NCBI RefSeq assembly: GCF_027942865.1
Contig: NC_134529.1
Coordinates: 16,668,467 to 16,732,466, forward strand
Reading direction: 5' to 3'
Length of the DNA: 64,000 nucleotides
From: Odontesthes bonariensis
Taxonomy: Eukaryota > Chordata > Actinopteri > Atheriniformes > Atherinopsidae
Each line of letters opens with the position of its first letter. Position 1 is the stretch's first letter. Both the position numbers and the translations under genes were made by a program. The notes below the pieces were generated by a model that saw only the letters and a list, made by a program, of their open reading frames with translations, was not told where the DNA came from and ran no database searches. Shown here piece after piece: positions 21,501-64,000 of the stretch.

Positions 21501-21786
21501 TCAAAGGGATGGAGTTTTAGTAGGAGGTGTCAAGAGGAGAAATAATACCCTCCGCGTGTTTACCGCAGATGCCATTATAGAGCTATTCTGGGCCACTATG
21601 GCTATTTACACTATACTGGCCAAGTAACCCAACACCACTACTGCAGGCTTCCTGAGTCACATACTCACCACCTGAATAAAGCATTTTCTGTGCAGATGGT
21701 GGTTGACATTCATGATATGTTTCTCCTCCGTGACTGCTATCAGCCCCTCCTCATCTAACGGTCCACTTTGCACACACACACGCACG

Positions 21787-21833
<47 letters not shown>

Positions 21834-22136
21834 CTATATCCCCATTGTCATGGTGACAAGGTTGCACCGTTGCTTGTTAAGTTGAGCATTTGTCACTGGC
21901 TGCTCTAAAGTCGTTGGGTGTCGTGTTTCAGAATGCGTGCTGCCCAGCCAGCATTGGACTTTCCCTGTCCAGTCTCCTTGGGGTCGACAGTACATATGTG
22001 CTGAGGACTGGCCGGCGTGCCGATAGTTTACTGGGTTTAACACGGTGCTTTTTCTGATGGCGGACTTGTTTGAAAGTCTAGTCAATGTCAATTACTTATA
22101 AGAAACATCATTGTAATAAACTGACTCCAGAACGGA

Positions 22137-22206
<70 letters not shown>

Positions 22207-25200
22207 AAGTTGTTTGAGGTCTGTTATTTCATTTCCAAAATCCAATGTTCTTTAACCTTTAATTAGAATAACTTTGATTTAATTCTTACTTTATAATCTC
22301 ACAATCTAAAAAACCCTTTCCTAAAATCATTACATCAGGCAAGGCTGTTTTTGCTTGCTTCTGTTCATTCAAGTCGCTGTGATATATGACGCCTTCGTTA
22401 ATACTTAATCCTGTGATTTGGTGTACGCAGGTGTGCGTCTGGACCGGGTTCGAGGTGGCAGACAAAAGTACAAGAGGAGAATAGACGCAGAGAACAGCCC
22501 GTATCTGCACCCGCAGAACACCTTGCCACAGAAAAAAACATGTACGTACAAATCACAGAGAGGTACTCGTTCTCGATGGATTTCTTTATTTTGAGTGTGA
22601 GCGGGTTGTAGTCTGAGAGTTTACAAGTTACTCTTTTCCATTCAAAACGAGCCAATATCACAGGACAAGTGCTGTCTCGAACTTAAGTGCATGGCAATTT
22701 TGTCAAATGATGAAAAATGTTGAGGGGAGAAAAATGAATCATAACTTTAGCAGTGGAGAAAAACAGCTTTGAAATGGCTCAAAGTGACACATAGACATGG
22801 AAAATCAATAGGATGAGAGTAAGAGCAGATGTAAGCTAGACAGATGTAAAGAGCTAACACCAGGTAACACAATTTCACAAATATGCTATCAAGCCCATTT
22901 TAGCCCATGCTATCAAGACATTTTTCAGTGTTCGGTTCCAAGTGGCTTTAAGTAGCTGGCAACACTGGCTTTAACCGATCAGAGCAGCAAAACATGGAAT
23001 GTAGTGCTGGGAGGTTGAAGAAGCAGTTCATATCGTAATGACCATTCTAAATCAATGGCAGCCATCTTAGTTACTTTTACTGAAGTGCCTAAATGGTGCT
23101 TCTCTGTACAATCAGGTGTCAAACCCACCTCATTTAGACAAACTGTTGTGACTCAGCTGAGCCTAACTCTCCTATAACCACTGATGTCAGCGGGTCTACC
23201 GTGGTGAAAACACCTCTGACCTCTCACTGCTCAGACATAATCTTTCTGCAGGTGTCCTGGGGTCTCATGCAATGGATTCATTGGGCTCTGTGGCTCGCAG
23301 AGGGAGGCCTCTGTAGATCGAGCTGGTTTCAGTACATCTTACGGATGTTGGTCAGGTTGACGTCTGCAGAGTTTTGAATCCAGTTCAGTGCCTTCAGCTC
23401 TTTGCTGCAGCTTTTTTGTAGTGTGTCACAGTTGAGGAGAGCCTTTGTCATAATTAATGATGTCTGTGACTGTTTCTTATTTTAGTTATTGGTTGTGTTT
23501 GATGTGTGTCTTTGCTTTGTCTTTTCTTTCCGCCTCTTGTGACTTTTTCAAAGGAGTCCGTAATCTCGCCGAGATTAGCTGATTGGTTAAACGGCTGTAA
23601 TAATACCGGAGTAAACTGCAGTAATGATAATCTCTCTCTTAGTCTCTCTAGGTGGTGCTGTTGAGAACAAGGTGGTATCTCTGCTGCTCGTTGCCGAGCC
23701 GGAGGGCATCTTCGCCATGCCGGACCCCACAGTGCCCGAGAGCGACATCAAGGCTCTGACCACGCTGTGCGACCTGGCTGACAGAGAGTTGGTGGTTAAC
23801 ATCGGCTGGGCCAAACACATCCCCGGTATGATTCAGGCTGAGCCCCCCTGTCTAAATCACTCAGTTGTTCACTCACACAAGCCACCACACACATTAGGCC
23901 CACTAAGTCTTTAATCAGATAAGAGGAGGGATTGTTCTGACTTGTGGATGCCAAGACACTCACTGGCAGCCCAGAGGAGGGAGGGAGTGTTGGCTTGGCT
24001 GTGTGTTTTCTGTCAGTCATCCTCTATATATGTCTGTCTGTGTGTGTGTGTGTGAGTGTGTGTGTGTATTTATATATATATAAATATATATATATATGCT
24101 CTAAATTGCATACATGCCCTCGCTGAACAAAGTGCGTTTCCACTCCAACAAGATGACCAGTGGCTACATGAAGTTTTAATTTATTTCCAGCTGTCAGAGT
24201 TACAGAAATCCTCCTGGCCCTTGGAACACATTGAGCTTGTCCTCTGACAAAGATAACTCTAGGGTTGTCCATAAGGTTTGAATGAAAAATGGCAGGGAAG
24301 TGCACTTTTGACGGCAAAGTTTAAAATGTTGTACGCAGTTGCCATCACGTGCAAGAGAGGTTTTCGGTGTGAATAAACTTAGTCGCCAAACTCAGAAAGG
24401 ACACAGATGAGCTCCAGGCTCTTTGGGAGCGTGTTCGGGACCTTTGTTTGTTTTTTTGTTTAAAGCATTCCAAAATAACAAGACAAAATGTTCTGAATTC
24501 TCTGAAACTGCTAAAGAAAGGGCCGATTAATACCAGCAGTTTCTTTTCTCGGCGTGTAAATGATCCAGGATGGAAATTTTTATTGTTTTGGAAAAGGAGG
24601 TACGGGTGCCTGTTAGTCCAACCATCAGGCCAAAACCCAAACATATATTCACAGTCACATTCATGGCAAATCTTCACTCTGGAAGCATTTTTACTTAAAA
24701 GAAAAAAAAAAAGGGATTCTGATTTTATCTTCTAATGCCTGCCAGTCCAATTTCTATTGATTTAGTAACATCCCTGCGGAGGTTGTTGGCCAGACTTACT
24801 CCCAAAAAATGGTAGAAGACTTTATTTTGATGTGAAGCGGAGAGCCACATATCTCAGGTTGGCTTCCTGAAGAAAAACTTTGAATAATTCACAGTAGTTG
24901 GCGCAACCTTACGAGAGGCATCTGGAACAAAGGGTTATTTTTACTGCCTCCGCTAAATTCCCCTCCGTCCGTTCTTCATATCTCTTTTCCTGCGACTGCT
25001 TTATCAGCCGTGTTATCCGCACCCAAAACATCAGCAGGGACACACCTGGGTCTTTTTGTTGATGTCTTGTCTCTGAAACGCTTACAAAACAAACAAAGCA
25101 GGTGTGCGTGGGCTTGTATCTCATCTCTGTATTTCTACCAACAAAGTGGACAGGAGGCAACACATTTGTGTGCCCTGCTGTCCCTCATCAGCATTTCCAT

Positions 25201-28200
25201 AGTTCTGCTTTGTAAGAAAACCACCTCCCCATCCTCCCACCCCACCCCCGGGCTGCTACTGTCTTTCTCTTTCCCCCCTCATTTTTGACTCTTTACTGTC
25301 AGCGCTCGAGACAGATGGAGTCCGTGATGGGTGTATATTTCTAGCCCTTTGCCAGTGGAGGGTTTTGTTCGGGGAGCAGAGCGGCGGTGAGAGGCGCCCG
25401 CACACACAGCAGATACCCACCTGAGGGAAATGGGAGAGGAGGAAAGAAAGGGACTTTTTTTTTTTTTTTTTTATGCAGACGTCAAAAACATTTGACTCAA
25501 ACTCCCGAAATGTCACCAAAAATACATAAAATGTAACAAAACACGTTGCGGCGAACAAAAGGTATTCTTGACTGGAAAAATTAACATCGTGGAAAGCGTT
25601 CAAATTGGCCGCCCTGTTGTTCCTCATCGGTGTCGGATAAGGCTCAGTGCTTTTACTTAGGAATTATACGGCAGTTAATGATCAGACAGCTGTCAGAAAA
25701 GCTCTCAATGAAATTAAACTAACTTTAGGCTGCTGAGGGCTGAACTGGAATAACTTGTGACACCAGCCACTCCAAACCAGTATTTCTCAAGCAACTCTTC
25801 AATAACGCAGAGATGTGCATCAACCTTTCTCATCCCTGTCATGACCCATATATACAGATGGAGGAGGCTGCATAGCTTCCAAAACACCAATCCACCTTAA
25901 CTACTCGGACGTTTTCAACAAAAAAATAAAAAATCACCATTACAGATATAGAAACTAATCTCTCATCGGGATAAGACTTTCTGAAGTCTTATAGACAACT
26001 GGACATCTGGTCTGAATACCCAGTGGTCAGTTTGCAGTTTTATACCCTCTGGCTGTGAATATCAGTGTTGCTCTTTTGGTCTAGGGTTGCGGAGCAACTG
26101 TCCTGGATGCTCAACCTCAGCTTCCCGTAATCTCCAACTGTAGCACTCGTACAGTGGGTGTCCACAATAACAATATTAATTATTAAACCTTTTATTACAA
26201 CGGCGTTAATTGTGGCCAAGAAAATGACTTCTCCAGTGAGGGGATGAAACAAAACCACCAATGAATCAATTGCTTCATCTGCGCAAATTTAGGGCGGCTC
26301 AGAACAATCCAACAGGAACATTGCGACTCATATCACTCTTCTCCTTCATTCCCCAGCCTATGTGAGATGTCTCTGTGCTTATGTAATTGTGTCTCTGTTT
26401 TGCTTCCTTATTAAGAAAGTTTTCTGTCTTGGAAACCGGCTCAATCACTTTGTTTCCTAGAGATTTGAAATGGTAGACCCAAACCAGTTTCACCCGCTGA
26501 GGCTGGAGAGGTTTGCTTTGCTCAGCATAAAGACTGGAAACACTGGAAAAGAGTTAGCCAAGCCCAGTTTTAACAAAACCCATTAGCTACCAACTCTAAT
26601 TATTACCCCATCTTTTAAAAAATGTAATTATTATTCTAAAATTAATTGAAAAAAATAAAAAGTGAAGTAATTGTACAGAGATAGAGCTAGGCTAACTGTC
26701 TCCCATCTTTTTGCTAGCTGACTTAGCTTCTGTAGCATGTACCACAAAAGAAATAAATATATTTGTCAAATATGGGGTCTTGTTCTTAAAGTTCGCAACC
26801 ATGAGACAGTTGGCAGTAAAATCAGTTGATGAAAAGAAACACGTAGGCTCAAAAATATTTGTCTAATCAAATTTAAGCAAAGATTCTCAGATGCAGTAGA
26901 AAAATTCCCATTAAAAAATCAGATCCAGAGTCCTGCATGTTTTACCTCCCTACCTGTTGCTTTATTCCAAAAAGGATCCTTTCAGTTACTGAGAAGTTTT
27001 GGAATTTTTGCAGATCAACCTTCTTCTTTTTTATTATTAAAAGAAATAAGAAGAAGAGGACATGTGCAGAGAAAAAGGAAATATTGTTAATTATAATCGG
27101 AATCCCCTAAATGAGATGACGGTCATCGCAAGACTGAAGACAAAAAGTAAATTCTGGACTGTGGCATTGCTAAAGCTATAGGTTGACATGGTGGGAGAGA
27201 CTGTAACAGGAGACAAAGAAAAAAAAATGGTAGCGAAGAGATGCGTTCTCCAATTAAAATGGCTATTTAAAAAAGAAAAAAAGACTGTCCCTTCCTAGCA
27301 GCGTAATGGCCGTGTCACATCAGCTCTGCGTGAGTGGCAGGACACGCAGTCCCCATCGCTGGGAGAACCGGGGTCCTGGGCAAAGTGTCCCAGGCCATCT
27401 GAGTTCTTTGCCTTGGGGGAGGTGAGTGTGACGGGGCAAGTGTCCTGCCTGCTCCCCCTTCTCTGCGTCTGCTCTTATCAGGCAGATTGACAGTGATGTG
27501 GTCTGAAGTCTGAAGGCCAGACTGGCAGATGAGCTGGCTAAAGACCAACTGCCCTCTTTGTTTTGGCCTTTTTTTTTTTTTTTTTTGAGTCCATGATGCA
27601 AGTTGGCTGTCGAATACGAGTGCGTTTTAGTCGACTGTGGTGTTACTGCCAAGTTGACATGATATGAAGTGTAGCTGAGGAAACTCGGCTATGAATGTGG
27701 AGAATCCCGTTGGCATAATAGGCCGGGTTATCTGTTTCTAGAATTAACGCCAATAGACAGAGAGGAGGACCAAAGTTTTCAAAGAAAAGGGAATATGTAG
27801 AGCTGTGGCAGACTCATTTTTTTGTGTTTGAACCACAGCCAATTGTTCCCCATAGAACTGTCCTCGCATACGGGAAACAATCTGTGATGAAGCTCTGCAT
27901 TAACAGGTAGAAATGGCAATGACGAAAGAGCTTGACGTTGGCCTCTCAAAACCCAAAGAAAACGCATAGAGAAACCAAGTGACAGTGAAGCTCATTATCA
28001 CTCTTCTCCCCAATCTCCATAGGGCTCAGTACAAAGCTTCCCGATCCTTGTATTCTAACCAGTTGAGGCTACCAATTAATTATCCTGCTCATCCTACCTT
28101 TAGACGAACTGCTCCGGAGCTTCCCGAGCAAGAGCACATAATCAGCCTACTTTACATTGTAGAGGAGTGGATTAGAGCAATTCAAAGTCCATGTCCTTTT

Positions 28201-30192
28201 GCTCCTCCTCGTCTTTGTCAAATATGTCGTTTTTCTGAACTGTGACTGATCGAGGTGCATGCGCAGTTGTAGCTGACTTATAGATATTTTTTTTTTAGGC
28301 TGCACGCAGAGGGACCTGCTGGACCCTTGGGGACTTTTGCTCATGAGGAAATTCACATCACACAGTCTTCGGGCATTGAGGAAACCCTAAAATACCTCTA
28401 AAAGTTCTAAAAGACTCAAACTGTCTGGTCTGAACATGTCCGTTAATGTCAGCTACAACTGGCCACGATTGGTTTCCAAAGGCAGAAATAGTTGATTGTT
28501 TAAAGGTGGTTTTGTTTAGTATGTTAGAACTCACTTTTCAAATGTGTTTCCATCTCCCTTCATGGCCATAATTTATTTTTTCTTCAAAAAAGCCAAAAAA
28601 CATATTTTTTTTCCTTTTGTCTAATTTTATTTTTGCTGTTTCCATCTCTCTTTTCTCATGTAATACTTCAAAATACACGTAATTAAAAAAAATTTAAAAA
28701 ACGAAAACGATGATAGAGCTTCTGGAAACTGTCCTCCCTGTTGTATTCATTTCTGTTTTATGTTGGTTTAACGAATATTGGTCCCTGAAATCTATCAGTA
28801 AATTGCTCGAGGTTTCATCAAACACTGACTCACACAGGTCTTTCTTCCTGGTCGATGGCTCTGCACTAGAATACTGATCCCTATTGAGCAATTAAATTGT
28901 GCACTGACAGCACTTCCAATCAATCAAGGGGGGATAGCGGAGAAATGGGTGCCAGTGGCGTCGCCGCGGTGATTGTAAAGAGCGGTGGCTCCTGATAACA
29001 ATCGCCAATACTGTCAAAAATACAAACACCTCCTCCTCCTCCTCCCCCAGCTCTGTAAAATCACCCGTTTAATTACAGTAAACGTGTGTGTGAGAGTGTG
29101 TGTGCAGGTTTATGCGGGGGCAGTTAGTGGGTTTAATCATACTCCAGTGGGGTGTAATTGTCAATCAAAGTAGGTGTGTCCTACAGAGAGCAATTCATTT
29201 TACCACCAATTCACTCCTCCTGTCCTTTATTATGCCCTTTGCTGTGTGGCCGTTTCGTAAAAGTAAAATCCTTCTTCTACCGGCACATTCTCCATTACAG
29301 CTATTAATATAAAGTCCACCCCAAATCTCTGCCAGACTGCCAGGCAAAATGTCCGATTTCAAATTCTTTAACCCTCATGATATGAGCTAATGGGATCTGT
29401 GATTACTCCCTCTCTAACAAATGCTTTCAAAGTCAACGTTCAGCCCCTAAGCTTGCAGTAATCCATCCATCCATCCATTGTAACCGTTATTTTGAAAAAC
29501 CTTCTTTTGTTTCTATGTTACTCAAGCTAGCGACCACCTTCCCTTCATGCCTTCTTATCCGCTTCCCTCTCCAGGCTTCCCCTCGCTGTCTCTCGCAGAC
29601 CAGATGAGTCTGTTGCAAAGCGGCTGGATGGAGATCTTGATCCTCCGCGTGGTGTTCCGCTCGCTGGCCTTGGAGGACAAGCTGGTTTACGCAGAAGACT
29701 ACATCATGGACGAGGAGCAGTCGAAACTGGCTGGTCTGCTCGACCTCAACAACGCCATCCTGCAGCTGGTGAAAAAATACAAAAGCATGGGACTGGAGAA
29801 GGAGGAGTTTGTGGTCCTGAAAGCCATCGCACTCGCCAATTCAGGTGCTGAGCTGGTTATTACAGAGACTTGGCTTTGTCGCTGCACATTAGGCTTTGTT
29901 GGAAGAATTGACCTTAGATTCACGATTTCATTTTTTTTTTCTTTCAGACTCCATGCAAATTGAGGACTCGGAGGCGGTTCAGAGACTCCAGGACGTCCTT
30001 CACGGGGCCCTGCAGGACTACGAGGCCGTGCACCACCCAGAGGATCCTCGGCGTGCAGGCAAGATGATCATGACCCTCCCCCTTCTCCGTCAGACGGCCG
30101 CTCGCGCCGTCCAGCACTTCTGCAGCATCAAACAGGACGGCCGTGTGCCCATGCACAAATTATTCCTCGAACTGCTGGAGGCCAAGGTCTGA
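9482..30192 (+). CDS. esrrg: estrogen-related receptor, gamma type (8 coding exons)
   Basis: An orphan nuclear receptor that binds single extended half-sites (TNAAGGTCA) and activates transcription constitutively. Exons: 9482-9537, 14819-15070, 15177-15334, 16301-16417, 22431-22541, 23643-23825, 29575-29844, 29948-30192. All join in frame to about 460 aa; human ERR-gamma has 458. The N-terminus [15 protein letters not shown] matches the gamma-specific start. The DNA-binding domain has both zinc fingers, the P-box EACKA and the C-terminal extension [16 protein letters not shown]. The ligand-binding domain ends in the AF-2 helix [10 protein letters not shown]. The adjacent usherin tail repeats the human ESRRG-USH2A neighbourhood. 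The DNA- and ligand-binding domains carry more substitutions than I expect for a plain ERR-gamma orthologue, so it could be a diverged teleost duplicate (esrrga/esrrgb) or the fish-specific esrrd. The family call is secure; the paralogue letter is not. Confidence 0.9.
10160..10445 (-). mobile_element. Tc1-like transposase C-terminal fragment
   Basis: The minus strand, read in shifting frames, gives remnants of a Tc1-like transposase C-terminus: an [13 protein letters not shown] block near 10400-10430, then a VKE...EHE segment with a stop where the family has tryptophan, then an HMDWPP-like motif near 10335. Frameshifts and stops show it is dead. It lies antisense to the ERR gene in intron 1. 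Confidence 0.6.
13368..13391. repeat. (TG)n microsatellite
   Basis: About 12 TG units in ERR intron 1. Confidence 0.9.
14819..15070 (+). CDS. esrrg: ERR coding exon 2 (N-terminal AF-1 region)
   Basis: Acceptor TTCTGCAG|GC. Encodes a Ser/Pro-rich segment with IKREPSSP, the phospho-sumoyl motif (psi-K-x-E-x-x-S-P) conserved in ERR N-termini. It contains the second in-frame ATG at 14832 (A at -3), which matches the start of the short ERR-gamma isoform. Donor AACAG|GTTGAT. Confidence 0.88.
15177..15334 (+). CDS. esrrg: ERR coding exon 3 (first zinc finger)
   Basis: Encodes (R)[16 protein letters not shown], then [20 protein letters not shown] with the four zinc-binding cysteines of finger one and the P-box EACKA. 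The acceptor CCAG|GAG|G gives two AGs three bases apart (exon start 15177 or 15180), which adds or omits one arginine. Donor CAGG|GTAAGA. Confidence 0.95.
16301..16417 (+). CDS. esrrg: ERR coding exon 4 (second zinc finger)
   Basis: Encodes [20 protein letters not shown] and then [19 protein letters not shown], with all four cysteines of finger two. The acceptor has a clean pyrimidine tract, CCCCTCCAG|GT. Positions around [13 protein letters not shown] differ from the usual FMKCLKVGMLKEG of ERR-beta/gamma. Confidence 0.95.
21770..21831. repeat. (CA)n/(GCAC)n microsatellite
   Basis: About 60 bp of nearly pure CA with interspersed CG units at the left end. Confidence 0.95.
22141..22203. repeat. 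(TA)31 microsatellite
   Basis: Sixty-three bases of uninterrupted TA, ending about 230 bp before an ERR splice acceptor. It is self-complementary and can form cruciforms or hairpins. Confidence 0.98.
22431..22541 (+). CDS. esrrg: ERR coding exon 5 (C-terminal extension and hinge)
   Basis: Encodes [19 protein letters not shown], the extension that reads the 5' flank of the half-site, and then a hinge [17 protein letters not shown]. Acceptor TACGCAG|GT, donor ACAT|GTACGT. Confidence 0.93.
23643..23825 (+). CDS. esrrg: ERR coding exon 6 (start of ligand-binding domain)
   Basis: Encodes [20 protein letters not shown] and [20 protein letters not shown], i.e. helices 1-3. Two in-frame acceptors, TCTTAG at 23641-23642 and TCTCTAG at 23650-23651, give alternative starts nine bases apart (23643 or 23652). 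Donor CCCCG|GTATGA. ERR-gamma usually has VVIIGW where this gene has VVNIGW. Confidence 0.92.
23826..29574 (+). other. ERR intron 6
   Basis: A 5.7 kb intron splitting the ligand-binding domain. It holds a mixed (TG)n/(TA)n run at about 24038-24098, T- and A-runs near 25456 and 27570, and a short (CATC)n patch near 29461. No gene is recognised. Confidence 0.6.
29458..29492 (-). repeat. (ATCC)n patch, possible tail of a LINE fragment
   Basis: Four CATC units followed by TGTAACCGTTAT. On the minus strand this resembles the GGATG-type tail and pre-tail of teleost non-LTR elements. It is too short to classify. Confidence 0.3.
29575..29844 (+). CDS. esrrg: ERR coding exon 7 (ligand-binding domain helices 4-9)
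   Basis: Encodes [50 protein letters not shown] and [15 protein letters not shown]. Pocket residues of ERR-gamma such as the Arg of FRSL, the Tyr of LVYAED and the Asn of LNNA are kept. An Arg replaces the usual Gly in LILGVV. Acceptor CCTCTCCAG|GC, donor TTCAG|GTGCTG. Confidence 0.95.
29948..30192 (+). CDS. esrrg: ERR coding exon 8 (ligand-binding domain C-terminus, AF-2)
   Basis: Encodes [20 protein letters not shown] through [20 protein letters not shown] to [13 protein letters not shown] and TGA. The AF-2 coactivator helix is intact. Confidence 0.96.
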
Positions 30193-34410: not shown

Positions 34411-35489
34411 GCTTAAATTAGTCAACTTAAGGTAGAAGAACGAAACAAGACGGCAGAGCAGTAAAACATATTTAAAGGTCCAGATGCAAGTCCCAAAGTT
34501 TCACCCAGGGCAAGCTCATGTCTGTAATTTGTCCCGCTGCAGATGGGCAGACGCACGTTGGTGGGAAGTTGAGGATGAGACGGAGGAAGCGGACATCGTG
34601 CAACTGGTTTCAGTGCTGCAGTGAGGCTTTTAGCTGCGGACTGAGGATAAGGGGTACTGCAGCTTGGCTTGCATAACGACTTTCCTCTCTGCTGTCTTTG
34701 ACTCATTCAACCGGACATTTCCGTGCGGCGCCACTTCCACAAGACGCTTGGCGCCATCGTGTGGTTATGGAGCATATTGCCAGGGCACCACGCCGAACAT
34801 TTAGGTCATGTTGTTTTCAGATATATTTCAAGCTCATATTCGGTGGGGATGTTTCTCTTTTCCCTTCCACCCTCTTGCTTTTAAACACACGAATCCACCT
34901 GTGCACTTCCACCAATATAACAACTGCAAACTATTTTCCTACTGTCTATGTAGGCTCGTTAAGCCAACGTCGTAAAGCATACGCACACTGTGGTAAATAG
35001 TTTGAGATATTTTCTTTATGTTTTTTTTCACTTTATATTAGAAACCCGTTCAGCACTGGGCTACTTTTTGGAACACAATGAAATGAAAAGCCCAAACTGA
35101 ACAGCCTCGGGCGCATTGGATCGGAGACACTTTGGAGAGTTCAGTAGGCTATCCTGACATGAAAGGACAAACAGCTCTTCAGGTAAAGGGAAACCAGACA
35201 CCCGACTGTTACCATGGCACTGCTTAGGAAAAGCAAAGGTTGGTGGGAGTTTTTAGAGGCACCGAGGAACAGCCACGCAGTTTCTTAAGTTCTGACGCGA
35301 GATGCGTATTTTCTTCTTTGTTCTCCCTGGGAAATGTCAGCTGCGAGACTGGATAATCTAACTTTTTTTTTTTTTTTTTCCCCCACATCTCGTCTCTTCA
35401 GAGTGTAACGTCGAAGGAAGCCGGTCAGCAAGTAAAAGTATCAGGTGTGAAATATTGATGGGGCGACAGGTGTGATCCTAAACACTTGG

Positions 35490-35576
35490 CAGGTCTTTGG
35501 CCTTTTGATCGATGCGTCACTCGGCGCGGGGCTGCCAGCACCGCAGCCGCAGGCCGAACCACGGACCCCAGCACTG
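35490..35576 (+). other. CpG-rich patch with a splice donor, candidate first exon of the usherin-tail gene
   Basis: A short CG-rich stretch (several CGCG/GCCGC words) ending in a consensus donor, CACTG|GTGAGT, about 1 kb upstream of the usherin-tail exons. It is the only promoter-like patch between the ERR gene and those exons. The frame of its ATG at 35512 does not fit the two acceptors I considered downstream, so if used it is probably non-coding. Confidence 0.2.
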
Positions 35577-36559
35577 GTGAGTCCCCTCTGTCCCCCCTCC
35601 ACTCATTTACAATAAGAACTTTGGAATCAACTCTGTGGATATACACAAAAGTGACTTAGTGTGGAGGCTTGCGCCATTTCTGATGCCTAAAACTAGGCCA
35701 CACGGGCCACTATGTCTCCCGTTACTATGTTATCAGTTCCACAGCGCGCACGTGATCGTCTTTCGTTCTCACTGTATTAATTCGTGACATCTGTCAAATA
35801 TAAATCCTCCAGGGTGCGAGCTGTTTTAACTGAAGAACACATTTTCATGTAACTGTTTAGTGATAGGAGGGCTGTGTGTGTGTGAGACTGATCATCGATT
35901 CACTCCATTTGGACCATCTGAGGTACATTCACAAGAGGACACGAATTCATTCTGCTGTAAGGTGGTAAATCCTGGACATATGGGCTGATAATTGTGTTTT
36001 TACATGTAATATGTGACAAAATGCCGGTTAATCATTATTCTTTTAAAAAAAAATGTATATGAATAAAATCAATAAGATGTAGCCTGTGTGTTAGACTTGT
36101 AAAAGCCCTCAAACCCCTCTTACACAGAAGCAGGACAAATTAATATAAATAGGTTTTGAGCCTCTTTGTGTTGTCATTAGTGGATTCTTTCCTCTGGTTC
36201 TATGATTGTTTCGGTCTCATTTCAGTCATGTTGGGCCTGCTTGTGTTAATCCACCGTTCATTCATCCATTTTTCTGTTCCTGTGTCATCTTGTTCGGGGG
36301 TTGTAGGTTTGTGTTCATGTTGAATTCACTTTGCTGGCCTTTCATCTTCCGTCTACTCAGTCTTGAACTCGTTTTAGGAAACTTAGCGATTTGCATAATT
36401 TTCTATCTGTTTAAAGACATCTCTGTCCCACTTTGTGGTTGTTCAGAACTTTTTTTTCCATCACATTGTGATGGTCTGAATTTAGACTTGAGCCTTATCG
36501 GTCTGCTCCGTCATCCTTCCGTGACTAATCAAACCCTAAACAATTTGTATTTAATGCAG

Positions 36560-36763
36560 CATTTAAATACAAAGTTTGGGATTCCAGATTCACCGAGCCC
36601 CTCTCCTCCTGGAGGAGGAGCAGGGGGTGGAGGGGGTGGTGGTGATCGGGCAGAGGGAGGCCTGAAAAACCAGCAAGTCGTACAGGAACTGTGGTTCATT
36701 GTGGTGATGGCAGGCATCGCCCTGCTGCTGCTCGCCGTCGTGTTAGGCGTCACGCTTCATAAG
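36560..36763 (+). CDS. ush2a: usherin-tail exon A (Gly-rich linker and transmembrane helix)
   Basis: Pro/Ser-rich then poly-Gly, then a hydrophobic helix, ending LHK at donor AAG|GTAAGA. Acceptor TTAATGCAG at 36551-36559 is preceded by a good branch-site match (TGACTAAT). A second AG at 36586-36587 would start the exon at 36588. If the exon is instead a first exon, the ATG at 36554 is the nearest in-frame start. Confidence 0.65.
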
Positions 36764-38044
36764 GTAAGAGACGGCGCTCCGTTTGTGCTGCCGCATGTCA
36801 GGGTGAAAAACTTACCTGGTGAGAAAACCGTGCGGCAGTTCTCAGGTAAGGTAAGGTTGAACCGATTCTTCTGTTCGTGTTGCACCAGGCCCTGAACACA
36901 CCCCACGTCACCAGGGAGAGACCTCCTCTGGTGGCCCTCCCCATGCAGAAGAGGAGCCCCATGGCTGTCTACCCAGCCAGCAACTCTGTCTTGGTGAGGG
37001 GTGCTTTAGCTTTGGTGCCTAATTTTTCAGATTGGCAACAGAAATGTACAAACTAGGTCATCGTCGCAGCAGATATTTTCCTTTTAGTTGCAGAAACTTC
37101 AATAGATCTGTTCCACTTATATGTCCCAGAAAGCCACGAAAGGGCCAGCATTAATAATACCGGCTCCAGCTGACATTTGATTTGTTTTTGGTGTTTTTTT
37201 TCATTTTCATTAGAGTTTTTAAGAAGCTTTTGCAATACATCATGTCTTGACCCGTTTCCCCTGAGAGCGCATCTTCATCTCACTGACCTTCCCTCAGTTA
37301 TTTTCGGGTCAACCTTTTGACAGTTTCCACTAATTTGGCATGTTGTAGAAAGTTTCCTCATATACTTTTATGCGCTTGTGGCCCAAATACGGCAGTCTCG
37401 CCCGCTCTTGTCTTGCAGTTTGATACGGTACCCGACACCACGAGCTTCTCCAACAGTGTGACCCTCAAGGGTTTCACCATGAAGCTAGAGGTAAATTTTC
37501 TCATCAACACATGCAAACAACCTTTTTGCTTGATTTGTAAGTAAAACGTTGTTTTTTTTTTTGGTCTCTGCAGGAAGTGCTGGAAGCCAAATGTGAGCCC
37601 GCTGATGAAGTTCCTCCGCAGGGCGAACTGGGCGTCCTCCGCATGAATTCTTTGAGACGTAGCGTCAGCCAGATGATGGATGGCAAGTCGCTCACGGGGG
37701 ATGACGATGTGTGGGACCCAAACATTTCAGGCCATGACAGCGGGATGGTAAGAGACCCCCAAAAAACGTATGCTGAACTTGTTCAAACTGCAAGCACAGT
37801 CACACTGATGATGAACTATATGCTGAGAAAAGGTTTCACAACCTTTTCTCGTTACCTCTTTATGCCCCAACATGACAGTATATTGTCCACTCAACAAGCA
37901 AAAACGTATCCAGGCTGTAGTCTGCGTTTCACAAGCCGTTTCCCCTCCCTCTAGTTCATGGATGACGAGGAATTTGTCGACACCGTCAAAGGCTTCAGCA
38001 CCGTGAGGAAGGAGCACACAATGTTCACGGACACCAACCTGTGA
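36560..38044 (+). CDS. ush2a: usherin (USH2A) C-terminal fragment: TM segment, cytoplasmic tail, PDZ ligand
   Basis: Usherin is a very large single-pass protein of hair-cell ankle links and the photoreceptor periciliary membrane; its tail binds PDZ proteins such as whirlin and harmonin. Five exons are visible: 36560(?)-36763, 36889-36993, 37419-37490, 37574-37747, 37955-38044. All introns are phase 0 with good GT-AG sites. They encode a Gly-rich linker, ELWFIVVMAGIALLLLAVVL (transmembrane), TRERPPLVALPMQKRSPM, LRRSVSQMMDG, and a C-terminus HTMFTDTNL, a class I PDZ ligand (human ends TDTHL). The fibronectin and laminin repeats, over 95% of the protein, are absent between here and the ERR gene 5 kb upstream. 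The start is undetermined: ATG 36554 would give about 216 aa. It is either an expressed mini-gene or a decaying duplicate; the intact frame favours expression. Confidence 0.8.
36889..36993 (+). CDS. ush2a: usherin-tail exon B (juxtamembrane)
   Basis: Thirty-five codons, including TRERPPLVALPMQKRSPM and VYPASNSVL, the most conserved part of the usherin tail. Acceptor TGCACCAG|GC, donor TTG|GTGAGG. Confidence 0.85.
37419..37490 (+). CDS. ush2a: usherin-tail exon C
   Basis: Twenty-four codons, FDTVPDTTSFSNSVTLKGFT to KLE. Acceptor CTTGCAG|TT, donor GAG|GTAAAT. Confidence 0.8.
37574..37747 (+). CDS. ush2a: usherin-tail exon D
   Basis: Fifty-eight codons containing LRRSVSQMMDGKSL and VWDPNISGHDSGM, conserved blocks of the usherin cytoplasmic tail. 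Acceptor CTCTGCAG|GA, donor ATG|GTAAGA. Confidence 0.85.
37955..38044 (+). CDS. ush2a: usherin-tail exon E (C-terminus with PDZ ligand)
   Basis: Twenty-nine codons, FMDDEEFVDTVKGFSTV to TMFTDTNL, and TGA. Acceptor CCCTCTAG|TT. Thr at -2 and Leu at 0 satisfy a class I PDZ ligand. Confidence 0.88.
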   Translation, partial: FMDDEEFVDTVKGFSTVRKEHTMFTDTNL

Positions 38045-42869: not shown

Positions 42870-45524
42870 GAAAGAAAGAAAGTAATAAACTCACTTTTTG
42901 TGAGGATCTGGAGGTCTTCAACAGGAGGGGAGCCTGCTTTCTTTTCATAAGGGATTACCGTGGTGAGATACTGAAAAGAAAAGACATACAATTCGACTGA
43001 AAACTATGCACTATTACTCATTTAACTTTGCATTTAAAAGGTCTTGGAAGAAAATAAAAATAGTGTCGGAATAATGGCAAAGGTCTAAAAATGCTATCGT
43101 CATTGAGAGGAGGTCTGAAACCGCTGCTCAGTGTAAACGCCTCCTGGCAAAGTTAGACAGCAGCAATTGTGCTTGAAATAAACGGAAGATTAAGATGATG
43201 AAACAGTACAAGCTGCAAAATAAATAAGAAAGAAAGAAAGAAAAGAGTTACTGAAGACGAGGAGAAAAAAAAAGGAGAAAAAGTGATGCCACAATAACAG
43301 CAAGTCAAACTGAACAAATGACACCAACAGAGAGTGGTGGTAGCAGTGCTGAAGGAAACAAACATGCCAGTGACAAGTAGGAAATAAATAAAAATAATAA
43401 AATAAAAAATAAAAAAAAGAACGGGTGCACGGAAATGTGTCTGCAGTGGAAAGAAAGAGCAGGGGCACCTGTTTGTCCCCTCCTGTGTTGCCAAAAGTCT
43501 GACGGAGGCCATTTTGAATGACACTGGAGAGTCCCTCCAGAGTGAGGAGCTACAAGGAGCGACAGGAAGGAGGGGGAAAAAAGAGATGAGGAGGTTTCTA
43601 TGTCAAGAGAAAGTGGGAAGAAGGTTTTAAGAAAAGCTTTGGTGCTAGCAAAGAAAATGATTCCGACCATCATCACCAACTATCATCTGTCAGGTCATGC
43701 ATCTCTTTCCATAAGATGAGAATGTGTGTGGCGACGTGTACTTGTGTCCATTTAAGCTGATCTTCAACGTGATCATGCAAACGGCTTATGTGTCTGTTTC
43801 TGTTCGCGTCCTCCTCCGCGTGTCGTCACGTGACTCACCGTGCCCGGGATGTGCGTGCTGGCTGTCCTCTGGCCGTTGGGCCCCGTCGTAGTCGTGCTTC
43901 TGATTTTCTTCTTCTTCCGCAGCAGGTCGCGGTGCTCCTTCTGTCTGTTCTGCACGTCGATCAGCAGCGAGATGAAGCTGTTCTTAACCTGCACACACAC
44001 ACGGAGCTTCGGGTTGGTCTCTGTAGCTCTTTCATTGTGTTCCTTGTGCACGAAACCCTCGAAGAGGAATCCATTTTTAGATTCTGTCAAAACTACTCTG
44101 GTGGAGTCGTGACACTGAGGCAAATGAAAATGTGAACATAAAGCTGCTGGCAATTCGCTGACCTCTCACCGCCTTTCAGAACGCTGTGAGCGCTGCTGTC
44201 TGTTCTCGCCACATCACGAGCCGTTTTTTTTTTTTTTTTTTTTTTTTAAAGCTTTCTGAACATTTACCCGTCGAGATACAGCTGATTTTTCTAACCGATA
44301 GGATTTTAAACCCAAATGTGACCAAGTCAAAGTACCTCCTTTTCATAGTCCAGTTCATCTCGCAGTGCCAGGACCTGGATCAGCTCTTCACTGTAGCGGC
44401 GAATGGCTGCCTCCACTTCCTCCAGAGTCTCAGTCAGCTCCGACACAGACAGCTGACGCAGTCCTGCAGACAATATGTCAACAAGTCAAGTAAACATTCA
44501 TGGGCTGCTGGTTAACAATCTGAATTCTACAGCCCTCAGTTTTCAAGCCAAATGTATTTTGTTGATTACATAACATTTAGTGTAACACACACACTGTCTG
44601 TCCCTATTTGTTACATGTTACATAAGTATGTTATCATGCGCGAGTGTGCGGTTCCATTGTGTCGTGGACAGCGTGCCCCGTTACAATTCATTCCAGGGTT
44701 GTGAAAAATAGCGACTCGCATCGCATGGGAGGATTAGGAGTAGTACTCACGTTCCTCGTAGCTGGTGTTGGAGCCGGAGCGTTTCAAAGCATGTAGGTCC
44801 TGAGAGAGCATAGACAGGTCGGACTGGGAGGGACTCTGGTCATCGTCCGGGTCTGGAGACTCCTGCATCATCTCTTCTATCTCCTCTATCACCTGAGCAA
44901 CACCGCAGTAAATAAGCATGCAGAAAAACATGTTTGCAGCGTCATACTGCAGACATTTACGTCCTGAAATAATCCACTGACTGCTGGCGAGGTACATGCC
45001 AGGGTTAATGTATGCATGTATGTGTGGTGAGGTGCTAATTCTGATCAACTAACACTTTACACTCGTATTACGTTTAAAGTGCTTGAGAGGTTCCAACAGC
45101 AGCTGCCAAGACGCTACGCCGCCGAGTTCGAGCACGTGTGTGAGTGGATCACCTGCTCCGCTGTGAAAAGCGGCTCCTCGTTGATGCACGGAACGATGAT
45201 CGAGTGCATGTCCAACTGTTCCCTCAGCTCGTCGTCGTCGTCCGAAAGATCCAAGGACTGGTTATCCAACTTGTGTCCCGCAGCGAGGGAGGAAAGGGCA
45301 GAGATTCAGAGAAAAACAGGAGGTGAAGCAGACAGAGAGCAGAGGTTCAAAGAAAAAAAAATGTTAAAAAAAACAACATATACACACACACAAAACATTT
45401 TGAAACAGACTGAGATCAAGTATCTGAAGTTTTGTTCATTTTTGAAGTGTTGAGAACATTTCAACATACTCTCTCTTTACAGCTGCTCCTTCCCTCTCAA
45501 TACACACATGCACGCACACAGACG

Positions 45525-45576
<52 letters not shown>

Positions 45577-48500
45577 GAATGAATGCATAATATTTCACAG
45601 GAGGAAAGCTTGTTGGATCACAGTTACAAACTGAATCTGGTAGCAACTTTTCAAAGCTGAATTACTTCCTGTGTAACACAGTCTCTTTCTGCAGAGGCCC
45701 GTTTTAAACACAGTGGTGCATTGCCATAACGATCATGGTGTTGGGCAATAAATCGATTCATCACTTAATAAGAATTTGACACTTAGGATGAATGAGTGTC
45801 TTTAACCACTGAACTGTGGGCTGGGAGTGCAAGACTCCGCACCCAGCCGCCGCTCTGGGTTTCTGTGCAACGTCTTCACAGAGGTATAGGCATTAAAACA
45901 GCAACCGACCTGTTTGTTTGGCAGAGCCGAGACCGACCGTCTTAAAAGATGGTTGAAAGTTTTTAAGTTTTTAATTCCAAAGGGCAGCACTTTGCCACGA
46001 GCAAAAGAGGACTGTGGATCCAGAAGGTCTCTGCAGTGCTCACTCTGTGTCCCGGTAACTTTCCCAATTAGGTTTATAAGGATATGCATTTACTCCCTTC
46101 ATTTACTATCTTTGAGATATGCAGGACTGTGATCTGTTCATTTCCTGCGTGAAATGTCTCCCTACATAACAGGCTGTGGGTGTGTGGTACCTCGTGCTCA
46201 GTGAGGTTGAGGGATGGCAGGTGTAGTGACCGGGTGTAGGAAGTCTTCCAGTCCACAGGCATCACGTGGCCATAGTTATTTGTCAAAGAATTCCACACCC
46301 TGGAAGAACGCAAGAAGAAGACAGAAAAAATGAAAGACTGTGAAATGAGACAGATGAGCAGCAGCCTGCAGTTATAGATAAGACAAACCCTGCTTCTCTT
46401 TTTACCATGACGCAGCATTAGCAGGCAGTTTTATGTCCTGTTCTCTGACCCCCCGTCCTCACCAGTCCGCGATGTTCCTGCAACTTCTTAATCGCACATA
46501 CTACGTGTCAAGTTTGCTGGCAGAATAGTTCTGGTGTAGAAACAGTGTTGCCATTATACCGGCAAATTGTTGAATGTTTACAACATTCTGCCGCACGGAC
46601 ACTGGCAGAGGAAACGTGGAAGCTGAACAGATGGCGGTGCAGAGTCTGTTGCTGTGAAATCCATCTCGATCTTGAAAAACATATTTGTTACAAGATTTTA
46701 AGGGTCCTGTGCAATCATTTACATTTAGTTTCTTAGCAGAAAGGTTCAAACGTCACTCTCTCCCCACGCTGTTTCCTCTCTAGGGAGACGTAACCCTTGC
46801 TGCAGCTCAAAGTTGATGTCCATTTGTAAGAACCCAATCATCTCTATTAAAAATTAGCTGGAGACTTCATTTGGGGCGGTGCGCAAATTCGCTGAAATCG
46901 AGTTACGAACTCATTTTGTGTGGTCGTGAAAGGTGTTAAGTAGGTTTTTAGCACTTTTAAACACGATGACTGAGGGTCTGATTCGAGTGAACTGCAGGCG
47001 GGTCACTTCTTGTTCTCTTGGCTCTTGGTGTGCTAGCAGCGACAGGCTGGATGCTGTGAACCCATGTGTCACAGTGGCTCTGAACTGTCATACCATCTCT
47101 TCCTCCAACACACACGCACACGCGCGCACAAACGTTTATATAACATGCATGTTTCTCCCTGAAGTCTTCACGCACTGCTTGGTGAGCTGTTGGGCCGTTC
47201 TAAATAGGGCAAAAGCTGGCAGGGAGCATTGTTTGTGCCCAAAAACATTGACCGTGTCTCAGGCACGTGTGCGCAAGCCAAAATATGCCATTAGCTTCGG
47301 TTTCAATAGGTGCGTTAAAAAAAAAAAAAAAACGGACATGTCTCAGTGAGTGCATTTATACGTTTCTGCTCCAGCACTGTACCCACTTGTCCGGTTTACT
47401 CGGTTTAACATCCATGCAGACGTGTGCAATAACACTTGACATTTCAGTTGCTTTTCCGCTCGCTCCAACTGAAGCGCACAATAGTTTTCCACCCATGTCG
47501 TCTTGTAGTTCGTCTCAGACATGGTCTTGCTCGATAACTTGTTAAGAGGCTGGGCACGTCGTGCAAAAGTGCAGTCATCCAGAAAAGACTCTCACTGAGC
47601 CCGGTGTCCCCATTTTGGCTTTGCCAGGCTGAAGTCCAATTGTTTCACTCCCTTTTTCCTCCGGTTCTCTCAATAACTTTCACTTTTCCCCTCTGTTTGA
47701 CCAACCATCTCACTGTAGATTTTCCCTACTATTAACTGAGAAATACATTCCCCACCGCACCTTTCCACACCTCCCTTGAAACAAACCCTTCTTTTTAATG
47801 TGCACATCTATGAAGAGATTCTGTGTCCACGCTACAAGGATCTTATTAGGTCTGCTCACATTTCTTCAACGCCAATGTCCAACAAACCAGCTGACCCTTG
47901 TGACATAACCTTCCTCGATATTCCTCTAATAATAGCCTCAACTTTTATGAGAGACACACACACACAAACAGTGGTTGAGTTTGACAATTAATTACTTGCC
48001 GAGAATCCAAACGATGGAAAACCCTGAAACTAAACGTTCCATCCAAAACACAAAACAGGCCAATCCCAAGTTCTTCTGGGAATGGACACTTCTGGAAATG
48101 TCTCCGACATTCCTCTTTGTCGCTTTGGACACCTTAATGATCAAACGAAGGAGTTATTTTTGGAAAATAACTGGCCTAAAAGAGAATAATGACATAACGC
48201 TTCTCTGCTATTACGCTTCATAAATCGCACACTGGACACTTCAAACTAAAAGGGCTGCATTAGCTGGGAACTCATGCTAGTTATAAATCATGGTTTATGG
48301 ATCTATAATATCTATGTCAGCTCATTTCCACCACAGCCATGTTCACACGGGTCTGTGATGTAAAAGAAAATCTAAACACAGATGGATCCGCAGTCCAGAC
48401 AAGCTTGTCACGCATCTGTGAATAATTTCTACGACAACTGTGGACCTTTATTTGGCTGCCACGTGTCTGCTTGCAGTAATATGTGCACTGCAGACAAATG

Positions 48501-49792
48501 CAGATGTTACACTATTATTATGCACGCTGGCAAACAGAACCTACAAATGATACGACGCTGGACAAAAATCATGCACGCCCTTGTTTAGTATGCAAGTTTA
48601 TGTGATTGTTTCAGTCCAAGACTGAAGTGAGGTGGTCAGTGTGTGTGTGGATATGCAGCAGCACCTTGCACACACCATGTGATCAGATCAAACAAACCGG
48701 CCTACCAAAGTTAGACGCAAAGGGCAAGAGGAGGGCGAATCACGCTGCCCCCTCTGTGGTCAAAGTGTCACGTATGCTCGCTGTGGGAGTGAAGTGAAGA
48801 GCTGCTGTGCAGTAATGGCACGTTGTCATGCGAATAAGTAGCTGTCACGTTTGAAAGCCCTTGAGATACAACTGGGAAGGGCCTCCAACTGAGATAACAA
48901 GGGCTGTTAATGCAGAGACAAAAAGATGCCAACAGTGCACCCTTTAAATCACAAGTTCATAAATGAAAGATGATATACTGTGTTAGCAGTAAGCGGAAAA
49001 CAGCGTGATAACCTTATTTGGTTTCATACGATTAAGGCCATTAAAAACAAACAAAAAAAACTCGTGAAAAAAAATATACGTGATTGGTGATCTAATAGCT
49101 TCAATCAATCTATCAACCAAGATCTTGTAACGTGGCATAACTCCTCCTCCGTCTGAAACACACACACTAAAGAAAACGACTCTTTCCTTCCATCCAACCA
49201 GACAGCTTAAATAAGTTGTTACATTTCATACTAATACCATGGTAATTATTCCTGATTCACCACAAAATGAAACGGTAGGGAACACAATTTGTTGTCACAA
49301 AACAGAAGATGTAGCGGAGTGCTGGAAATATGCAGCCAGCCAAAGTTTGCACGGCACTGATTGAAGCTAGCTACTCTCAGAGGAGTCCCGCAGCGGATAA
49401 TGTCAATGCCAGGTTAGCCTGCGAGGCTAACAGTGGCTAACGAGCAAAGAGATTAAAAGTGAGCACAATTAAAACTGGCAGAAAATTCACACTTACTCGT
49501 CATCTTTCAGGAAGTTATCCTCCGTGATAGGCTTGACGGGCGCTATGTTTTCCGTCGCGGTGTTGTAGTTTTGGAAGCACACTGTCAGCTTCTCATCGAA
49601 GTCGTGGACGAGGTCCTCCATCGACTTGAAGCTGCAGATCTCACCGGAGAAACTGTTGTCCAGGTCGGACAACTCGTTTAGGCCCGACGCGTCGCCCACA
49701 TTTGAGTTCAGCTGGTCAGCCGCCTCAGAGGACGGCTTGAATTCGTTAAAGTCCTGCCAGTCCTCATCGAAGTGGGCCAACGGCGCCGCCAT
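41334..49792 (-). CDS. fez2: FEZ2, fasciculation and elongation protein zeta-2 (10 coding exons)
   Basis: FEZ proteins are cytosolic adaptors that link cargo to kinesin-1 and act in axon growth and autophagy. Exons in transcript order: 49792-49497, 46299-46191, 45269-45153, 44892-44751, 44463-44336, 43988-43839, 43549-43469, 42970-42895, 42693-42628, 41350-41334. They join in frame to about 393 aa. Diagnostic stretches are WQDFNEF near the start, NNYGHVMPVDWK, VIEEIEEMMQESPDP, the coiled-coil block SVSELTETLEEVEAAIRRYS to LALRDELDYEKE, VKNSFISLLIDVQNRQKEH followed by a basic KKKK patch, TTVIPYEKK and the C-terminus TDYILKVLCPT. WQDF, the MPVDWK block and QESPDP favour FEZ2 over FEZ1. The promoter is GC-rich. 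The gene ends tail-to-tail with the usherin-tail gene. Confidence 0.92.
41351..42627 (-). other. fez2 last intron
   Basis: About 1.3 kb. The part near 41940-42250 looks like a dispersed repeat, with a TIR-like sequence around 41950-41985, but I cannot assign it to a family. Confidence 0.4.
42628..42693 (-). CDS. fez2: fez2 exon 9
   Basis: Encodes HAMRDDSEKVPALLTDYILK; acceptor CCCGGCAG|TC, donor AAAG|GTAAAC. Confidence 0.93.
42838..42867. repeat. poly(A) run in fez2 intron
   Basis: About 30 A on the plus strand, less than 30 bp downstream of the exon 8 donor in the direction of fez2 transcription. Confidence 0.95.
42895..42970 (-). CDS. fez2: fez2 exon 8
   Basis: Encodes YLTTVIPYEKKAGSPPVEDL and QILTK; acceptor CTTTTCAG|TA, donor AAAA|GTGAGT. 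Confidence 0.92.
43469..43549 (-). CDS. fez2: fez2 exon 7
   Basis: Encodes LLTLEGLSSVIQNGLRQTFG and NTGGDKQ, matching the SMEGISNVIQNGLRHTFG region of FEZ2; acceptor TTGTAG|CT, donor CAG|GTGCCC. Confidence 0.88.
43839..43988 (-). CDS. fez2: fez2 exon 6
   Basis: Encodes VKNSFISLLIDVQNRQKEHR, a basic run RKKKKIR and a Thr-rich linker ending HIPGT; donor ACG|GTGAGT. Confidence 0.93.
44224..44247. repeat. poly(T) run
   Basis: Twenty-four T on the plus strand in a fez2 intron. Confidence 0.95.
44336..44463 (-). CDS. fez2: fez2 exon 5 (coiled coil)
   Basis: Encodes LRQLSVSELTETLEEVEAAI and RRYSEELIQVLALRDELDYE, a heptad-rich region used for dimerisation and partner binding in FEZ proteins. Acceptor TCTGCAG|GA, donor GAG|GTACTT. 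Confidence 0.93.
44751..44892 (-). CDS. fez2: fez2 exon 4
   Basis: Encodes VIEEIEEMMQESPDPDDD and SMLSQDLHALKRSGSNTSYE; acceptor GCTCAG|GT, donor AAC|GTGAGT. Confidence 0.93.
45153..45269 (-). CDS. fez2: fez2 exon 3
   Basis: Encodes an acidic stretch SLDLSDDDDELREQLDMHSI followed by INEEPLFTAEQ; donor CAG|GTGATC. The start shown uses the AG before TTG. A second AG 12 bases downstream would shorten the exon in frame by four residues. Confidence 0.85.
45531..45575. repeat. (CA)n microsatellite
   Basis: About 22 CA units in fez2 intron 2. Confidence 0.95.
46191..46299 (-). CDS. fez2: fez2 exon 2
   Basis: Encodes EVWNSLTNNYGHVMPVDWKT and SLHLPSLNLTEHE; acceptor CTTCCAG|GG, donor GAG|GTACCA. 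Confidence 0.92.
46300..49496 (-). other. fez2 intron 1
   Basis: A 3.2 kb intron with no recognisable gene or transposon; open frames here are short and unrelated to known families. Confidence 0.5.
49497..49792 (-). CDS. fez2: fez2 exon 1
   Basis: Starts MAAPLAHFDEDWQDFNEF in a good initiation context. Includes FKSMEDLVHDFDEKLTVCFQ, then ITEDNFLKDD and donor GA|GTAAGT. The acidic SFKSMEDL...DEKL stretch is shared with FEZ1. Confidence 0.93.
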
Positions 49793-49935
49793 GACTGCCG
49801 TGGGAACTCGGTTGGCGGTCGGGTAAGCTTCCTCAACGGGGCTCTGTTTTTCGGCTTTGAGAGACGACGAGACACAGCGGGTCGTTTGAGTCAGACTGAA
49901 GCTGAATGGGGGCGGGGCAACGTGACGTATGTTTG
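49793..49935 (-). promoter_or_regulatory. fez2 promoter and 5'UTR
   Basis: A GC-rich stretch just upstream of the fez2 ATG. It has a GC box (GGGGGCGGGGC, 49908-49918) and a CRE-like TGACGTA (49923-49929), as in TATA-less housekeeping-type promoters. Confidence 0.5.
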
Positions 49936-51113
49936 AATGCCCCTCCCCTTTCCGATGAAGCTAAATAAACAAGTAACGTTACTGTGTGGCTAACAAAAAC
50001 CAACAAGAAACTATTTTTAAACCATTTTTGTTGAAGTAGTTTGAGTTTTTGATTAAAAAACAGTCAACCATTCAAGTGACTGCATTAGTTGTATCTGCTC
50101 GAGTTTTATTGTTGTTGTGGATGATAGATGGAGAAGCCCAAACCATTAGACTAATGGTGAAATTATAAAGCAAGACACATCCACATCCACTTTTACGTTT
50201 TTGTTTTTAATCCTCTGGGTACATGCACCATGCTTTCGTTAATTTGACAAATTATATCTCCGGAGTGTTAAAAGTGTTAAATGATCCAGCTAATGTTTGT
50301 TTCCCTGTTTTACTGCGATATTTTGTGGCTCCAAAGAGTTCAATCTGGCAGAAATTGTCCCATAAAATATGGACCCTTTGACTTACCCGAAAGGAAATTG
50401 GAAATTTAGCTTGTTTTCATCCTTTAAAAAGTGTGGAGATGGTGGATCGATATAAAAATGGTAGTATTTAAAAAGAAAGTAAAAATCATGGTTTAAAAAG
50501 CGTTCTTTTACTCAGTTTTGCTCATTAGATATTTGCGCATACCCAATTAAAAAGGACTTATTTGCATATCTAGACATGACCTATCAAAACATCTGCAATC
50601 AAAGAAAAATAAATAATTGTTTTCATTTAAGTACTAAACTGGGGAAGTTTTGTGCCAACATTTATAGATTAGACATACCTTTTTTAAGACTAAAGGTGTT
50701 GATTGCAATATATCTTCAGAAACTAAGTTCATGACTAAAAACATATACCATGATAATTAACATAAAGCAACTAACAATACCCACGCATGTTATCTCACAA
50801 GCTGTTGCTTTGATTTCATGACATGACCTTTTTAGTCTTTTTATTTCCAACTGGCACTTTCCACCACACAACCTTTATCTGTCATAAAAGATGAACAAGG
50901 TAAAACAAAAAGAGGAAGCCCCTGTTATACGGTTTGCAAACAACCATTTCGATAGTATTAAGCAAAGCATACGATCTGCCGGCTTCCGGGCTTTTTTAAT
51001 ATTGAAAAGTACATGACCGCACAGAAACACTCTCACATTTGTCACTTTTCTATCCAAAATGGCAACCCTTGTATCAAAATGGCCAACAATATGACTTATT
51101 CAAATAGCTGGAC
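49936..51113. other. intergenic between fez2 and wdr26
   Basis: About 1.2 kb of AT-rich sequence between the fez2 5' end and the wdr26 3' end. No gene seen. Confidence 0.5.
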
Positions 51114-54560: not shown

Positions 54561-63214
<8,654 letters not shown>

Positions 63215-64000
63215 CTGAGTGGAAGAAGCAAGACACAGGCAGAGAGAAAATAGCTTATCAAAATGAAAAGAGCATCAGAGAACGAAGGAACAGATTCCTG
63301 AATGAGCCTGATCATACATAAGATCTCTATTACTGATCCAACAATGGATAACCTGCACAGCTGTACTGCACTACATGTTTTCATCCGTACCCCTGTGAGT
63401 TTATATTTAATCTCATAAAAAATGAAGTAACTAAACAATATTTGTGACATTGTTTGATATCCACTTTAAATAAAAAAAAAAAATATGGTGCCGTCATCTT
63501 GTAAAGCTGCCTGTCCTCAAAGATTATTAGAGATGTTCACAAAGCGCATAGTAATGTCAACATCACCAGTCTTCTTTGAAGCTGGTGGCTAAATGCAAGT
63601 GTTTTACTAATCGCTGCCCGTCAGCAGTGACATTTGTAGCATGAAGCGTCTTTGTCTTATCTCAGCTATGCAGCACAGCTCTGACGATTGATGCAAACGC
63701 AGTTAGAACTACCACACACAGATTTGAGAGAACGCTCGCCCACGTATGCCTGCAGAGACCTCTCTAAATTCTTAAACTTTATATGACCTGAGTAAACTGT
63801 GATTATGACTATATCTACGACCAACCAGAACTGCGGTCAAGCTATCTTAAAGGCGATAAAACCAACTTCCACTCTCGGCGCGAAATGAATACCACAGTTG
63901 CAGTGACGGCTTAAAATATTCAGGTACATGCATTTTCACATTAACTGACCTGTGATAATGACAACAGAGCGGCAGGCACTTGACTCAAATATCAGGGAGC
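63215..64000 (-). other. wdr26 intron running off the window
   Basis: I looked on the minus strand for the preceding CTLH exon (NHVMEGDWDKAE-type) and did not find it, so the remaining 5' exons lie beyond the right edge. Confidence 0.5.

Follow-up and report, generated by a model that had tools for sequence, protein, structure and literature searches.

A small gene on the plus strand of Odontesthes bonariensis, 5 kb downstream of an estrogen-related receptor (ERR) gene in the same orientation, encodes the transmembrane (TM) helix, the cytoplasmic tail and the C-terminal PDZ ligand of usherin. It lies in a 64 kb window, the whole stretch of DNA analysed here (NC_134529.1, 16,668,467-16,732,466, forward strand), which contains no N. 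From sequence comparisons, this free-tail gene appears to be the teleost genome-duplication (Ts3R) ohnolog of ush2a, having lost its ectodomain before the living teleosts split. We consider it probable that the gene is a teleost-wide ohnolog beside esrrgb whose product, a single-pass usherin tail of ~210-240 aa, acts as a membrane-tethered ligand of PDZ scaffolds, with the hair cell as its likeliest site.

A protein search with the 214-aa tail returned 167 short proteins (best E 4.2e-112), and the best 120 of these were used for counts, lengths and trees. Since the search admitted lengths of 0.55-1.75x the query (about 118-374 aa; the short records seen measure 120-307 aa), all matches are short by construction; the case for a distinct gene is made by the tree and by linkage. 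Among the best 120 of the 167, short tails come from percomorphs, cod, pike, salmonids, smelt, otophysans, herring relatives, eels, Arapaima and mormyrids, and most short records among the matches listed bear the automatic name usherin. A full-length set was obtained by padding the tail of query P0117 with X so that long proteins would qualify; its 71 long usherins range from those of sharks to those of mammals and teleosts.

The first-pass annotation of this DNA had described five consecutive exons encoding the TM helix, the cytoplasmic tail and a terminal TDTNL, about 5 kb after the ERR gene. The product is as described when read from the window exons, and the spacing is 5 kb from the ERR stop to the first exon that we propose (Table 1). 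The five exons are indeed consecutive, with GT-AG sites and no stops, and exons B-E, all in phase 0, had been placed exactly. Exon A had been over-extended to 36206, which is the mere edge of an open frame; its acceptor, AG|ATTCACCG, is set by the N-termini of orthologues and the junction ..ST|DSPSPTPP. Two probable 5' coding exons had also been missed, a first exon (exon a) and a cassette exon. Reading continues in frame from exon a into exon A whether the cassette is included or skipped, which gives a complete frame of 241 or 213 aa. Repeats at the locus are mostly A/T-rich or short two-copy matches.

Table 1. Features of the 64 kb window, in positions counted from its first nucleotide.
Feature	Position	Strand	Description
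Estrogen-related receptor gamma b	14832-30192	+	Upstream syntenic neighbour; outer coding limits approximate
Exon a, proposed first coding exon	35214-35238	+	Putative start; MALLRKSK, donor gttggt, ATG in ACCATGG context
Proposed cassette exon	35493-35576	+	84 nt, symmetric, skippable in frame; GLWPFDRCVTRRGAASTAAAGRTTDPST, ending in RGAASTAAAGRTTDPST
Exon A	36588-36763	+	Gly-rich juxtamembrane segment and TM helix ELWFIVVMAGIALLLLAVVLGVTLHK
Exon B	36889-36993	+	Juxtamembrane tail TRERPPLVALPMQKR; usherin match by tblastn
Exon C	37419-37490	+	72 nt, FDTVPDTTSFSNSVTLKGFTMKLE; matches optional 24-aa block of full-length usherins
Exon D	37574-37747	+	Tail NSLRRSVSQMMDGKSL..DSGM; usherin match by tblastn
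Exon E	37955-38044	+	FMDDEEFVDTVKGFSTVRKEHTMFTDTNL and stop; class I PDZ ligand TDTNL
FEZ-family gene	44737-49960	-	Pfam FEZ on two exons; strand opposite to tail gene
WD40 gene	54731-63274	-	One WD40 Pfam match at 61.1-61.4 kb
LINE-type retrotransposon remnant	55113-58031		GC-rich; reverse-transcriptase frame (RVT_1 in 55987-57567); apparently within WD40 gene

The start codon is the least certain part of this gene model. Starts resembling exon a occur in 3 of the best 120 short records (Menidia P0003, Umbra P0063 and Knipowitschia P0050), and the cassette is aligned by the N-termini of P0006, P0007, P0011 and P0017; a few models (P0004, P0009) read the cassette region in another frame upstream. 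In P0006, the cassette and exons A-E lie together in a record with a longest contig of 1277 nt, whereas they span ~2.5 kb of genomic DNA here. A whole spliced frame within 1277 nt implies an mRNA, and the record is very probably a cDNA, on which its source tag, lgn, presumably also bears. Translation could instead begin at a methionine inside the TM helix, yielding ~165 aa that would be cytosolic or loosely membrane-bound, a soluble PDZ competitor and not an anchor. The ATG in the window has a good context (GTGATGG), and 59 of the best 120 short models begin at this methionine or later. However, among the 61 models of this set that reach upstream of the TM helix, 24 carry a TTD-type motif (loose pattern) in their upstream coding sequence, and these range from Arapaima to percomorphs, so we regard the internal start as unlikely. 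The CpG profile around the 5' exons was uninformative.

We compared nine full-length usherins with the window by tblastn, with the reversed window as a control. Exons B-E gave strong matches and exon A a weak one (best E 0.35), and no laminin-type or fibronectin type (FN3) ectodomain match stood out within the 64 kb. The best match outside the tail (E 0.005) fell on the ERR zinc-finger exon and the next reached E 0.061, compared with a best of E 0.084 in the reversed window. The window thus holds the order of usherin from the TM helix through the tail to a class I PDZ ligand, and lacks the laminin/FN3 ectodomain. Only the tail exons stand out, which bears out the earlier statement that the ectodomain coding sequence is missing. 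In searches with the tail itself, no Pfam family was matched, and the 23 weak PDB matches (best E 0.04) included no usherin.

USH2A is huge, some of the records are partial or of low quality, and a search that admitted only proteins of about 118-374 aa was bound to return short models; ectodomain exons might thus be present in the genome and missing from assembly or annotation. We consider such an artefact very improbable. The 5 kb between the ERR stop and the first proposed exon are free of N and of usherin matches, the short form is found repeatedly on contigs with ERR gamma b, and the 120 short records (best of 167) occupy one side of the tree, unscattered among the full-length tails. Moreover, full-length ush2a sits elsewhere in the same species: short and full-length records lie on contigs of unequal length in all five species compared (Arapaima, Umbra, Silurus, Trichomycterus and Astyanax), although some of these pairs may mix assemblies. 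In medaka, a full-length ush2a is reported as the single ortholog, on chromosome 3, in the available part of one study (PMC3781144), and USH2A is termed single-copy in the accessible text of a study on ERR genes (PMC7617844).

A rooted tree was built from 52 rows and 186 columns, comprising the window and, picked by hand from the 120 and the 71, 21 short records and 30 full-length ones; Trichomycterus P0108 was left out, its TM start being unrecognised. The short tails formed one clade (22 rows, support 100/99), sister to a single clade of full-length teleost tails (16 rows, 95/87). The two were joined at 100/98 to the exclusion of bowfin, gar and paddlefish, and the inner forks, some of them weak, broadly track fish phylogeny. 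In a quick tree with a midpoint root, one branch (SH-aLRT 99) split all 121 short rows (the window and the best 120 of 167) from the 71 full-length tails. Forcing the ray-fin full-length usherins together against the short tails was rejected by an AU test (p 0.003). From the duplication node, the path is 0.72 for short and 0.59 for full-length tails, which makes the short tail the slightly faster of the two as a whole. The short tail is therefore placed as a Ts3R ohnolog would be, sister to teleost ush2a above the holosteans. As osteoglossomorphs and eels own the short form, the ectodomain would have been lost before the extant teleosts split.

The first-pass annotation had left two dates open for the duplication, the teleost one and an older one. 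According to the latter, the tail would descend from the 2R vertebrate duplications together with ERR delta, a receptor that exists in jawed vertebrates (PMC7617844, in the part available). This would put the short tail outside the bony-vertebrate usherins. Forcing the bony-vertebrate full-length usherins together, as a 2R origin predicts, was however rejected (AU p 0.008), and the tail tree contradicts it as well. The ERR neighbour nests within ray-fin ERR gamma, above gar and bowfin, in a tree sampled without delta sequences. We therefore treat the 2R/ERR delta origin as ruled out by the tail tree, the AU tests and the ERR tree, leaving it a negligible probability; the teleost date stands.

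The neighbour, which had been suggested to be a possible esrrd, is ERR gamma b by the names of its nearest relatives (gamma, gamma-like, gamma b or gamma type 2; 95% identity to Menidia) and by its place in the ERR tree. In that tree, the tail-linked ERR genes sampled, that of Brienomyrus included, form one clade with moderate support (84/93) inside ray-fin ERR gamma. Tail and ERR gamma b records lie on contigs identical in length in 23 of 25 comparable species (tallied by eye), which makes the mis-assembly envisaged earlier unlikely; the exceptions, Poecilia latipinna and Oryzias latipes, possibly involve different scaffolds or assemblies. Locus tags for the two genes are consecutive in Gambusia and Channa striata. 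Full-length usherin and ERR gamma a, in turn, have records on contigs equal in length in Alosa, Pygocentrus and Polyodon (by eye). Such two-way linkage, to ERR gamma a and b, is the double-conserved synteny expected of the teleost genome duplication. Together with the tree and with the conservation described below, it supports the view that the gene is an ush2a duplicate that lost its ectodomain. The stem branch of euteleost ERR gamma b is long (0.42), so that rapid evolution after the duplication affected the neighbouring receptor as well.

Mean pairwise identities were compared between the 22 short rows and the 16 teleost full-length rows. Short tails are the more alike in exon E (94% vs 67%), exon B (75% vs 62%) and exon C (76% vs 34%, the latter depressed by rows without the block), and the less alike in the TM helix (67% vs 75%) and in exon D (38% vs 55% in its first half, 62% vs 68% in its second). 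Constraint has therefore moved to exons B, C and above all E, and the selection on the tail proposed earlier finds support at the protein level, chiefly in these three exons. A decaying pseudogene whose tail survived by chance might be read from the variable N-terminal exons and from the 38% identity of short rows in the first half of exon D. Yet the C-terminal exon hardly varies among the sampled teleosts, and the window has an open frame and intact splice sites; we find this explanation the least credible of those weighed.

The PDZ ligand is nearly fixed. Among the best 120 of 167 short records, 113 end in TDTNL and four in NDTNL, the others being YLLSS, IDTNV and IVYGR. Full-length usherins end mostly in TDTHL (54/71) and rarely in TDTNL (2/71). 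With N in place of H at the penultimate residue, the choice of partner may differ from that of usherin.

Exon C (24 aa) aligns with an optional 24-aa block of full-length usherins. The block was found by pattern in 15 of the 71 full-length records, and others lack it at that place; the Apodemus usherin has it, and the mouse and rat records do not. It is present in 118 of the best 120 short records (110 by pattern, 8 by eye) and absent in P0062 and P0082. In mammals, a 24-aa usherin exon is reported to be restricted to the inner ear (available text of PMC8417766 and PMC2873905); the latter, from 2010, describes a unique cytoplasmic exon in hair cells that is missing in photoreceptors. By length and place, exon C is presumably this exon. 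In some full-length usherins (P0122, P0133), a further optional tail segment lies at the place of exon C, and Megalops and Alosa have both the block and this segment; it was not found in the short records examined.

These features suggest how the free tail may act. The predicted protein has a short Gly-rich segment outside, followed by the TM helix and the tail of usherin and then the PDZ ligand. The charges flanking the TM helix are -1 outside and +2 inside, and no signal peptide was recognised by eye. These features suggest that the helix would insert as a reverse signal anchor, with the N-terminus outside and the tail inside. The tail may then bind the PDZ scaffolds of usherin, namely whirlin, PDZD7 and perhaps harmonin; in the accessible text of PMC2873905, the usherin tail pulls down whirlin and requires its PDZ motif. 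No extracellular link would be needed to keep scaffolds bound in this way at the plasma membrane. In hair cells of the ear and the lateral line, the protein might thus anchor or stabilise scaffolds beside full-length usherin, or limit it. From the near-constant inner-ear block we take the hair cell to be the likeliest site, a step that draws on one exon, exon C, and we think such a role likelier than generic PDZ competition.

Zebrafish mutants bear on this proposal, as far as the available parts of the reports go. In ush2a u507 fish, an antibody to the usherin C-terminus gave no retinal signal (PMC7372554), and b1245 mutants lose whirlin from the periciliary region (PMC9944904); the short gene is therefore no substitute for usherin there. 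Hair cells in the u507 study were stained with an N-terminal antibody (PMC7372554), to which a free tail is invisible. Larvae of u507 had slightly thinner and fewer hair bundles, without a significant loss of startle; the hzu6 line showed reduced startle, and hearing was not examined in the rmc1 and b1245 lines (all PMC7372554). Fish models are described as mainly without auditory defects (PMC9944904). It is conceivable, though on balance we doubt it, that the free tail is dedicated to hair cells and has the inner-ear exon fixed. It would then organise or buffer the scaffold of the ankle links and could make the ear phenotype of zebrafish ush2a mutants milder.

The closest known protein is usherin isoform b (USH2A), which shares with the free tail the TM helix, the tail with its optional 24-aa block, a class I PDZ ligand and linkage to ERR gamma. 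Unlike it, the free tail has no LamGL, LamNT, EGF-Lam, LamG or FN3 domains and ends in TDTNL rather than TDTHL. Human USH2A isoform a is likewise a short product of the usherin family, but it is the opposite half, a secreted N-terminal part of 1546 aa without TM helix and tail (PMC8417766, in the part available). If our reading is right, the giant extracellular link persisted in one duplicate, whereas the other was reduced to a membrane-tethered PDZ ligand. The pair would form a natural experiment in which the inside of usherin was split from its outside and, together with an inner-ear-type exon, retained by living teleosts. USH2A is modelled in zebrafish and medaka, and a second, conserved gene that shares the anchor and the PDZ tail could offset its loss in mutants, mislead work with C-terminal antibodies and hide ear phenotypes.

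No paper on the free-tail gene was found among those listed for the literature searched, whose coverage left out most subscription papers. As far as we found, the gene is thus already annotated in databases, as usherin, yet apparently undescribed. The name ush2ab in the literature probably denotes the b1245 allele. A Seriola record (P0070) with the zebrafish-style clone name si:ch211-57i17.5 is a short protein of the usherin-tail kind, with 71% identity across 77% of the query; its likeness to a zebrafish gene is by name only, and the name was not found in the literature searched.

Elsewhere in the window lie a FEZ-family gene and a WD40 gene (Table 1). The latter resembles WDR26; besides its one WD40 match, three further minus-strand frames examined there gave none. 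The LINE-type retrotransposon remnant occupies part of the same interval.
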